This document shows positions 44,496 to 47,693 of a stretch of DNA of 64,000 nucleotides, one piece after another. Made by a program: the position numbers and the translations under genes. This DNA comes from Methanocorpusculum labreanum Z (GTDB taxonomy: Archaea; Halobacteriota; Methanomicrobia; Methanomicrobiales; Methanocorpusculaceae). The stretch is taken from positions 573,921 to 637,920 of the forward strand of contig NC_008942.1 of the NCBI RefSeq assembly GCF_000015765.1, read 5' to 3'. The notes under the pieces were generated by a model. It saw only the letters and a list, made by a program, of their open reading frames with translations. It was not told the DNA's origin and searched no databases. Positions within the stretch are counted from its first letter, which is position 1; the number at the start of each line of letters is the position of its first letter.

Positions 44496-44544
44496 GCTCC
44501 CAAACAGAATACAATAAGTGGGATTCAGTCAAATACATCATATA

Positions 44545-45765
44545 ATGACAGCATCGAAAATTCTTCTTCTCATCATTGACGGTGTGGGTGACCGACCGTG
44601 CGGGGTCCTTGGCAATAAAACCCCGCTTCAGGCGGCAAAAATCCCAAATCTCGACCGTCTTGCAACTGAAGGGATCTGCGGGATCATGGATCCGATCGCT
44701 CCGGGCGTTCGCGGCGGCTCGGACACCTCGCATCTCAGCCTTCTCGGATACGACCCCCATATCTATTACACCGGCAGGGGACCCTTGGAAGCGGCAGGCT
44801 GCGGCATAAAGATGGAACCCGGCATGATCGGATTTCGGGCGAATTACGCCACGATCGATGATGACGGCAATGTGATCGACCGGCGTGCCGGCCGTATCCC
44901 CGACACGACCGAGATCACCGCCGCCGTGAAAAACGGTGTCGATCTCTCAAAATACGGTGTCGAGATCGAGTTCTCGCCTGGAACCGGTCACCGGGCAGCC
45001 CTTGCCCTCAAAGGAAAAGGACTCAGCGCCGCCGTCTCGTCCAATGACCCGAAGAAAACCGGTGTCCAGCCGAAGACGATTCATCCAGATGACGACAGCA
45101 AAGAGGCGGCCTTTACCGCCGAGGTATGTAATGAATTTTCCCGACAGGCAGCCGAGATCCTGAAAAACCATCCGGTCAACCTCGAACGCAAAGCCCGCGG
45201 CGAGTTCCCGGCTAACGTAGTTCTCATCCGGGGAGCCGGAGAGATGGGCGTTTACGAGACCTTTGAAGAAAAACATGAACTCTCCGGCAGTGTGGTCGCG
45301 GCCGCGGCATTGATCGCCGGGATCGGCAGTTCCGTCGGTCTTGAACGCATCCCCGTTCTGCCCACAACGCCGCTCGATGAGCAGGTGCGTCTTGTGTGCC
45401 GCGAGCTGGAGAAAAAGGATTTCGTTCTCTTCAATGTCAAAACGGCCGACGAGTACGGACATGACGGAAAAGCCGTCGAGAAGACGAAATATCTCGAGGA
45501 GGTCGATGCGGCCCTTCTGCCGTTCTTTGATATGCCCGAGCTGATGATCGCGGTCTGCGGGGATCACTCAACGCCCTGCACGATCAAGGAACATAGCGCA
45601 GATCCGGTTCCGCTGATCCTTCACGGAGACGGGACCCGTATTGATCTCGTCACAAACTACGACGAGATCTCCTGTGCGGCAGGCGGTCTTTGCCGGATAT
45701 CCGGCGGCAGTCTGATGCCGATCCTTCTGGACCTCATTGACAAAACCCATAAGTACGGAGCATAA
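44545..45765 (+). CDS. apgM: cofactor-independent phosphoglycerate mutase (ApgM)
   Basis: Interconverts 3- and 2-phosphoglycerate in glycolysis and gluconeogenesis. About 406 residues from ATG 44545. An alkaline-phosphatase-type metal core is visible: LLIIDGVGDRP near residue 6, RGGSDTSHLSLLGYDP near 54 with the active serine, VLFNVKTADEYGHDGKAVEK near 295, and VCGDHSTPCTIKEHSADPVPLI near 335. This matches archaeal ApgM. Start 44545 is preferred over 44518, whose extra residues are not family-like. Confidence 0.92.
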   Translation: MTASKILLLIIDGVGDRPCGVLGNKTPLQAAKIPNLDRLATEGICGIMDPIAPGVRGGSDTSHLSLLGYDPHIYYTGRGPLEAAGCGIKMEPGMIGFRANYATIDDDGNVIDRRAGRIPDTTEITAAVKNGVDLSKYGVEIEFSPGTGHRAALALKGKGLSAAVSSNDPKKTGVQPKTIHPDDDSKEAAFTAEVCNEFSRQAAEILKNHPVNLERKARGEFPANVVLIRGAGEMGVYETFEEKHELSGSVVAAAALIAGIGSSVGLERIPVLPTTPLDEQVRLVCRELEKKDFVLFNVKTADEYGHDGKAVEKTKYLEEVDAALLPFFDMPELMIAVCGDHSTPCTIKEHSADPVPLILHGDGTRIDLVTNYDEISCAAGGLCRISGGSLMPILLDLIDKTHKYGA

Positions 45766-45791: not shown

Positions 45792-46853
45792 ATGGCGGAG
45801 GATAAAAAACGGATAATAATAGCTGAATCATTGCCCGAAGAGGAGGAAAAGTACCTGACTCTGCCGCAACTCACCCCCGAAGAAGAGGAAGAACTCGAGG
45901 AGCAGGCATCAAACGATGCCGACGAAAGTCCTGAACCTCTGTTTTCCGAGGTGGCCGCGGATGAAAAAAAGCTCCCCCCTCTGAATCTCTCCGAAGTAGA
46001 CGAAGAGACGGCGTCGATGGTCGTATCCTCCTCTGATCTTTTTAAAAGCTGTTATCTCCCAGATAAAACCGAGCTGCAGGAACGCAATCTCAAAACCAGA
46101 CACGACATCCTTGTCGGGGATCACTGCGATATCGGATACGGCCTCTACGGAGAAGATATCGTTATCAGTGAACTTTCGACCATGCACGGCGATATCGTCG
46201 CGGAAGGTGATCTCCGTATCGACAACTTCTGCGAGGTATTTGGGACGGTCCTTTGCAACGGGGATGCGTATCTCGGCGAAGGCGTGAAGATCCACGGCAA
46301 ACTGAATGTCGGCGGCAATCTGGATATCGGGGACAATGTGGTGATCGACAAGGAGTTCAAGGCATACGGGGATATCGCGATTCGAAATCCGATGCCGGTC
46401 GTCCTCTATCTTCTGCTCTATGTTATGACGATGCTCCATCTGGAAGGAGAAGAAGCTGCACGAAAACGTGTCGAGAGTCTGATCTCCGAAGCGAACTCCG
46501 CACCTCTGGTACTTCCTCCAAAAACCGCCATGGATCTTCGCTACTTCGCTGTTCCCACACCGATGGAGATCGGATCAAACTGCCGTCTGCATGGAAATAT
46601 CCGTGCCCAGTCGGTCAAGATCCGCAAAGACACTACGCTTTTTGGGAGTGTGCAGGCTTCCCAGCGAGTAAAACTCGGGCCGCGGACGGCGATCCACGGA
46701 GATGTCGTCGGACAGAATATCCGGGTCGAGCGGGGAGCGGATGTGCTTGGCGATGTGGCCGGAAAAACGGTCTGGCTGCACGAGGACGCACGAGTGAGCG
46801 GCGTGATCAAAGCGACCGAAGGGCTTACCATAGGTCATGCGGAGGGAAAATAA
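45792..46853 (+). CDS. bactofilin-like / left-handed beta-helix polymer-type protein
   Basis: 353 residues, soluble. An acidic N-terminal tail (1-80, many E and D) is followed by two blocks of short beta repeats, about 105-195 and 255-350, in which G-x-V/I and hydrophobic hexapeptide-like units recur (for example MHGDIVAEGDLRIDNFCEVFGTV and RGADVLGDVAGKTVWLHEDARVSGVI). This fits the polymer-forming cytoskeletal (bactofilin) or left-handed beta-helix family. No catalytic acyltransferase histidine context is evident. The stop abuts the next gene (TAAATG), so the two proteins are translated together. Confidence 0.65.
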   Translation: MAEDKKRIIIAESLPEEEEKYLTLPQLTPEEEEELEEQASNDADESPEPLFSEVAADEKKLPPLNLSEVDEETASMVVSSSDLFKSCYLPDKTELQERNLKTRHDILVGDHCDIGYGLYGEDIVISELSTMHGDIVAEGDLRIDNFCEVFGTVLCNGDAYLGEGVKIHGKLNVGGNLDIGDNVVIDKEFKAYGDIAIRNPMPVVLYLLLYVMTMLHLEGEEAARKRVESLISEANSAPLVLPPKTAMDLRYFAVPTPMEIGSNCRLHGNIRAQSVKIRKDTTLFGSVQASQRVKLGPRTAIHGDVVGQNIRVERGADVLGDVAGKTVWLHEDARVSGVIKATEGLTIGHAEGK

Positions 46854-47693
46854 ATGTCGAAACTTGCTGAAATGCTGGAGCTGGATGAACTCAGACTTCT
46901 TGAACCGGATTATGCTTCGCTCGTGAATAACGGCGAGCCGGGTGTTTTAATCTGCGAGGCGGAGCCTGTGGAAAACGGAGCGAGACTCCTGATCGATGAG
47001 GAGGAGAGTCCTCTGTTGTTTGCGGTGAAAAACGGCGATGAGTGGTGCGGAACCTCCTGGCTTTTCCGGTCGCCGACGTCTGGAGAGCTGGCTCTCTTTG
47101 AAGCGGCGGACGGGGATATCTATCAGGAAGACCGCGAAGATGTGGAGGATGCGTGCCGAGCATATTATGCGGACGTGATCCAAAAGGTCATCCCGCCGGC
47201 CGGAGACGACCTTACCACCGACAGGATCGCCAAGGTCCGCGATCTTCTTCACGAGATGTGGGGAAGTTCGATCTCTGGAATCGCGCTGGACGCGTGTGCC
47301 GGGTCAGGAATCGGTTCTCTCCTTTTGAGTGAGATGGGAGCTCATCCTATTGCATATGATAACGATCCCGAGCTTCTGGCGCTTGGTCTTTCATCGGGCA
47401 GACTTTCGCCCGAGCGGATGATCTGTATCGACGCACGGATCGCCTCGGCGTATCTTCCGGATGCGGCGTACGGGGTTGGGATCATGTTCGGGCAGATTTA
47501 CGGGTATACGAAGGATATCTGGCGGCCGATCATCGAGGAGCTTGCCGGGATCACCGAGAATACGCTCATCACGGTCGCAACGGAAGAAGAGGCTCACTGG
47601 GTAAAGGAGTGGGCAAAGGGTGTTGGAAAAACGCTCGAGATCATGGAAAATGAACGTGATCCGATCTACGACCGCTGGGTCTGTTTCGGGTGA
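46854..47693 (+). CDS. predicted SAM-dependent methyltransferase-like protein
   Basis: 279 residues. The C-terminal half has the Rossmann methyltransferase motif I, ALDACAGSGIGSLLLSEMG (near residues 143-161), then AYDNDPELLALG as the acidic motif II. The N-terminal 120 residues form an uncharacterised alpha/beta region. No target motif (such as DPPY) is visible, so the substrate is unknown. The gene starts directly after the bactofilin-like gene, which suggests the pair works together. Confidence 0.6.
   Translation: MSKLAEMLELDELRLLEPDYASLVNNGEPGVLICEAEPVENGARLLIDEEESPLLFAVKNGDEWCGTSWLFRSPTSGELALFEAADGDIYQEDREDVEDACRAYYADVIQKVIPPAGDDLTTDRIAKVRDLLHEMWGSSISGIALDACAGSGIGSLLLSEMGAHPIAYDNDPELLALGLSSGRLSPERMICIDARIASAYLPDAAYGVGIMFGQIYGYTKDIWRPIIEELAGITENTLITVATEEEAHWVKEWAKGVGKTLEIMENERDPIYDRWVCFG

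Follow-up and report, generated by a model that had tools for sequence, protein, structure and literature searches.

A close gene pair of very probably separate origin in the Methanomicrobiales: a bactofilin-like gene, a methyltransferase-like gene and a possible link of the latter to MCR

Nearly all biological methane is made or consumed by MCR and, to our knowledge, several of its modifications have no assigned enzyme. N1-methylhistidine is common to the MCR of ANME-1 and of methanogens, and ANME-1 is without 5-methylarginine. A 2020 review gave no enzyme for the N1-methylhistidine of McrA (PMC7581889); the S-methylcysteine methyltransferase of McrA in Methanosarcina is McmA (PMC7058361). 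Regarding scaffolds, bactofilins have been described in bacteria such as Thermus thermophilus and Caulobacter, and in the account of Curtis et al. (2024) given in PMC12186497 the halofilins HalA and HalB of Haloferax volcanii are archaeal bactofilin families.

Here we analyse two adjoining genes, ORF A and ORF B, in a window of 64,000 nucleotides, that is, the whole stretch of DNA that was analysed. An earlier note had described them as a bactofilin-like protein coupled to a methyltransferase, perhaps a scaffold with its own modifying enzyme and an undescribed two-gene system. Our main reading, to which we give a probability of roughly 0.45, is that two genes of separate origin have been co-translated since the ancestor of the Methanomicrobiales, and that ORF A would be a scaffold and ORF B a methyltransferase linked to MCR.

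Both reading frames could be confirmed at 45792-47693 on the forward strand (Table 1). The upstream gene, apgM, which in relatives starts at a position equivalent to about 44545 and in the window was called from 44518, is separated from ORF A by 26 nt. Downstream of ORF B there are genes for tRNA-Val and tRNA-Gly on the opposite strand. Many Methanomicrobiales have the order uS15, DHH phosphoesterase, SerRS (the type 2 seryl-tRNA synthetase), eS1, apgM, ORF A and ORF B, the products being read from the sequence.

Table 1. Position of the features of the ORF A/ORF B locus in the window
Feature	Coordinates	Strand	Basis
apgM, 2,3-bisphosphoglycerate-independent phosphoglycerate mutase	44518..45765	+	NF003104, 506 bits, above cut-off
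ORF A, two-block bactofilin-like protein, 353 aa	45792..46853	+	Pfam Bactofilin score, AF2 model, 6ria superposition
N-terminal tail of ORF A (residues 1-86), acidic and predicted to be disordered	45792..46049	+	Alignment; pLDDT
Predicted beta-helical block 1 of ORF A, about residues 85-200	46044..46391	+	AF2 model, structural superposition
ORF A residues 87-101 (C..LPD.TELQER.LKT), cluster invariant in Methanomicrobiales and not elsewhere	46050..46094	+	Alignment
Helical link of ORF A, residues 204-232, after RNPMPV; conserved	46401..46487	+	Alignment, AF2 model
Predicted beta-helical block 2 of ORF A, about residues 240-348, bactofilin fold	46509..46835	+	Pfam, AF2 model, superposition
TAAATG junction, ORF A stop abutting ORF B start	46851..46856	+	Sequence reading
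ORF B, class I SAM-dependent methyltransferase-like, 279 aa	46854..47693	+	AF2 model, class I fold
SAM-binding motif I of ORF B (DACAGSGIG, residues 146-154)	47289..47315	+	Conservation in alignment

The junction reads ...AAA TAA ATG.... The earlier note took TAAATG as shared by the stop and the start; the two codons do abut, but zero bases are common to both. The coupling that it proposed is in line with what we found in the order. Of the 77 named Methanomicrobiales loci that contain the pair, 57 show an ATGA-type overlap of exactly 4 nt and almost all the other junctions fall between -7 and +9 nt, which means that the close junction is conserved.

ORF A was described correctly as a protein with an acidic tail and two beta-repeat blocks. 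By direct count, residues 1-86 have 26 D/E and 7 K/R, and the pLDDT of residues 1-80 in the AlphaFold2 model is mostly 38-73, as in a predicted disordered region. In the alignment this tail is restricted to the genus of the window and the other Methanomicrobiales begin near block 1. The model (46 sequences) is confident over residues ~81-200 and ~240-348, the two blocks, and places helices between them at residues 204-232. The bactofilin-like assignment holds as well, given that the Pfam model Bactofilin scores 50.1 bits on ORF A (cut-off 27.9) and is above cut-off in all 5 distant homologues scanned. Residues 256-348 of the model superimpose on the Thermus bactofilin 6ria (Z 14.4, rmsd 1.6 A, 88 residues aligned), and the second-best structural match for block 2 is Caulobacter BacA. 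The right-handed beta-helix core of the solved bactofilins is present in the model of this block. The canonical architecture, a single beta-helical core with unstructured tails, is not that of ORF A, and because of its two blocks and the helices at 204-232 we term it bactofilin-like and not a canonical bactofilin.

In the model, block 1 is a beta-helix with no clear nearest family; hexapeptide-enzyme matches to this block, with rmsd near 11 A, were left out. The tail and the presence of two blocks probably explain why Foldseek returned zero matches at E <= 0.001 for the whole model of ORF A; block 2 was matched by a second structural aligner, used after it. A search of PDB sequences with ORF A found no convincing relative. 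The objection that ORF A is a plain acyltransferase of the hexapeptide class (LpxA, LpxD or GlmU type) fails, as every model scored below its cut-off (Hexapep 25.7 against 27, LpxD 29.1 against 242.5, GlmU 18.3 against 366.85). ORF A is a two-block architecture inside a known superfamily. Judging from the model it is probably a bactofilin-like scaffold, which would most likely self-assemble or polymerise.

The AF2 model of ORF B has a pLDDT of 94.9 and a pTM of 0.90. Its residues 115-279 adopt the standard class I methyltransferase fold (Z up to 16.7 over 157 residues), with the features of that class: a Rossmann-like fold, a glycine-rich motif I and an acidic residue after strand 2. The SAM motif, judged sound by the earlier note, is conserved at D146, G150 and G152, and a YDND motif is conserved too. 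No named family could be attached to it, since no model of Pfam or NCBIfam reaches its cut-off on ORF B; a search of PDB sequences gave generic SAM-motif matches only. Homologues outside the Methanomicrobiales are 22-27% identical to the protein of the window, and throughout the family W64, R124, G150, G152, D193, E246, N266, D273 and W275 are invariant. The family of ORF B is uncharacterised although its fold is known, and the fold itself does not indicate the substrate. We consider it very likely that ORF B is an active methyltransferase.

Of the 199 Methanomicrobiales genomes in the order-level sample, 188 have ORF B and 145 have ORF A (131 and 105, respectively, of the 135 genomes of better quality). 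There was no genome with ORF A and without ORF B, and 43 had ORF B without ORF A. We inspected four of these B-only genomes (L062, L065, L075, L077) and in all four ORF B directly adjoins apgM, as if ORF A had been removed. In one Methanoregula MAG (L232:6097-6552) the ORF B homologue is apparently truncated or frameshifted, with ORF A intact.

The family searches covered the Halobacteriota; names such as haloarchaea-like, Archaeoglobi-like, Methanosarcinaceae-like or ANME-1-like are group names inferred from gene content. Full-length homologues of ORF A occur across the phylum with E down to 1e-97, in haloarchaea-, Archaeoglobi- and Methanosarcinaceae-like families, and the helical segment after RNPMP is kept in the first two of these. 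Outside the Methanomicrobiales more than 100 genomes have ORF A without ORF B, and both genes occur in only 11 of 202 genomes (odds ratio 0.025). Where both exist and their positions were compared they are unlinked, for instance at 547,990 and 4,087,775 in G320. The gene-neighbourhood survey that the earlier note had suggested therefore has a double outcome: the pair is conserved in the Methanomicrobiales, but outside the order its members are unlinked and nearly mutually exclusive.

In distant lineages the ORF A homologue follows apgM (L127-L132, L134), which means that apgM, and not ORF B, is the old partner of ORF A. A YchF-like GTPase lies downstream of the homologue in L115, L119, L128-L130, L132 and L134, a set which overlaps with the former. 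Even among distantly related Halobacteriota a bactofilin-like gene is thus linked to that of a glycolytic enzyme, and in some of these clusters DHH phosphoesterase, SerRS and eS1 are found further upstream. We consider it very probable that ORF A and ORF B are of separate origin, and we do not regard the pair as a novel type of two-gene system.

These different phyletic histories would also suit two ordinary operon neighbours with no functional link, in which ORF B was inserted downstream and the overlap is a product of genome compaction only. In line with this reading, ORF B keeps its place next to apgM where ORF A has been lost, and the junction drifts in the window's own genus (0, +1, +5 and -4 nt). 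Nevertheless, the junction has been kept across six families of Methanomicrobiales, and the pair is intact in L061, L066, L076, L088 and L090, although there apgM is gone from the locus and lies elsewhere. We regard mere neighbourhood as rather unlikely.

The same conserved junction, with its -4 nt in 57 of the 77 loci, and the fact that ORF A never occurs without ORF B in the order-level sample would be expected if ORF B methylated ORF A and so tuned the assembly of the scaffold, at least in the Methanomicrobiales. Furthermore, C87, E94, L95, Q96 and K101 of ORF A are invariant or nearly so in 46 Methanomicrobiales sequences; 20 homologues, from lineages that mostly lack ORF B, have other residues at these positions. 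As an alignment pattern this is compatible with ORF A being substrate or partner of ORF B and equally with common descent, as clade-specific residues may be plain shared descent. However, ORF B is retained in the 43 genomes without ORF A, and outside the order ORF A does without ORF B in the more than 100 genomes mentioned, the two being unlinked in the examples checked among the 11 of 202 with both. Methylation of ORF A by ORF B is unlikely on these counts, and the idea of a scaffold with a dedicated modifying enzyme finds no support in the form proposed.

ORF B has itself diverged in the Methanomicrobiales. Outside the order, all 19 homologues checked have two pairs of cysteines that could bind a metal, one of the form C-x(1,2)-C and one C-x2-C (homologues L135-L154; the second pair of L153 was read by eye). 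None of the 45 Methanomicrobiales sequences tested has the second motif, and in the alignment the first is not present at its position. Moreover, a long branch of 1.54 changes per column leads to the Methanomicrobiales. The long branch and the lost cysteine pairs suggest that the substrate or function of ORF B may have shifted in the order.

The distribution of ORF B follows that of MCR. McrA was detected in 98 of the 111 genomes with ORF B; 43 genomes are McrA-positive without ORF B and 93 have neither. All the Halobacteriota families with ORF B (f1-f8, f10, f14, f22, f30) hold McrA, and the 13 single genomes with ORF B and without detected McrA are mostly incomplete MAGs. In the ANME-1-like family f10, ORF B lies within a few kb of McrC, AtwA, YcaO or mcrBGA in 12 of 16 loci, and is often the gene directly after McrC or McrC-d28. 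The arrangements are AtwA, McrC-d28 and ORF B, or McrC and ORF B, or ORF B next to YcaO; in two loci mcrBGA follows after about 10 kb. The McrA of f10 has a CCx4Cx5C patch in both loci checked, a hallmark of ANME-1 MCR. In the Methanothrix-like family f22, ORF B is beside methanogenesis marker 8 in two loci. The linkage to MCR genes is limited to f10 and, weakly, f22: it was not seen in Methanomicrobiales, in Methanosarcina-like genomes or in f7, f8, f14 and f30, where the neighbours are other genes. In the Methanosarcina-like genomes the ORF B homologue is present once, next to the genes for pyruvate carboxylase. A sensitive profile search found ORF B absent from several other MCR-bearing lineages. 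The co-occurrence counts are phylogenetically structured and represent few independent events, and therefore we take these associations as leads and not as proof.

Our literature search on the ANME-1 cluster found no report of a gene homologous to ORF B. Among L144, L145, L147, L247, L248 and L252, two further reading frames recur beside the ORF B homologue in the ANME-1-like MCR cluster: a conserved, divergent one of ~100 aa without a Pfam match, and a protein of ~195 aa between McrC and the methyltransferase. Two tandem genes for AtwA (component A2) lie upstream of McrC in L145, L146 and L147, all of one ANME-1-like genus.

The range of ORF B also resembles that of McmA, for which the query was chosen by its position beside the mcr operon. 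Among the McrA-positive genomes, 69 have McmA and ORF B, none has McmA without ORF B, 29 have only ORF B of the two (chiefly f10 and the genus of the window) and 43 have neither. ORF B is not McmA: its profile misses the McmA candidate, the hhalign probability is 8.8, and the two occur as distinct genes within single genomes. We did not find a McmA homologue in the genome of the window (G000), which has two McrA loci, or in G012 and G016, while other Methanomicrobiales have one. For the subgroup of G000 this absence predicts an MCR without S-methylcysteine.

From the position of ORF B in the MCR cluster of f10 and its co-occurrence with McrA and McmA, we tentatively link its substrate to MCR, at somewhat short of even odds. 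A substrate in translation, either a ribosomal protein, rRNA or tRNA, is very unlikely: S15, eS1 and the type 2 seryl-tRNA synthetase are in the Methanomicrobiales neighbourhood and archaeal RNA methyltransferases are among the many nearest folds of the ORF B model, but the equivalent cluster is without ORF B in L130-L132, the fold matches are generic for class I, and the family is absent from non-methanogen relatives with the same ribosomal genes.

According to the preferred reading, of two joined genes with a scaffold and an MCR-linked methyltransferase, ORF A would be an ancient Halobacteriota protein, ancestrally adjoining apgM, which self-assembles and has a scaffold role. ORF B would form the Methanomicrobiales branch within a class I methyltransferase family whose other members are confined to MCR-bearing archaea, and the target of its methylation would be MCR or a factor for the maturation or activation of MCR. 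Both genes would have merged into one operon in the ancestor of the Methanomicrobiales, where the coupled junction would set co-expression with the housekeeping apgM operon, and ORF A would not necessarily be a substrate. That the family installs a methyl group of MCR itself, with the N1-methylhistidine of McrA as the leading candidate, is highly unlikely, and if it were true the MCR-bearing lineages without ORF B would need a different enzyme.

The value of the locus is thus as an MCR lead: a family that follows MCR and sits in the ANME-1-like MCR cluster is a candidate for MCR maturation. ORF A, conserved through most of the Halobacteriota and linked to apgM, is a target for work on archaeal cell shape outside the haloarchaea.

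Regarding the known systems, ORF A shares with the bactofilins (PF04519; Thermus thermophilus 6ria, Caulobacter BacA 2n3d) the beta-helix of block 2 and a disordered N-terminal tail, both as predicted, but it differs from them in its two beta-helical blocks, the helical segment between them and the RNPMP motif. The halofilins, as far as that account of HalA and HalB goes, belong to the same phylum, in which haloarchaea-like genomes carry full-length orthologues of ORF A. In its residues 115-279 the model of ORF B is like YunM (7wzf), CalS10 (6uk5) and TylM1, generic class I enzymes, with Z of 16-17; however, the identity is 12-14%, and its N-terminal domain (1-112) is outside the matches. McmA is the closest parallel in kind: both are SAM-dependent and MCR-associated, have an N-terminal domain followed by a C-terminal SAM domain and show a near-identical phyletic range. 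Nevertheless, their sequence relation does not go beyond the generic SAM motif, and the ANME-1-like genomes have ORF B and lack McmA.
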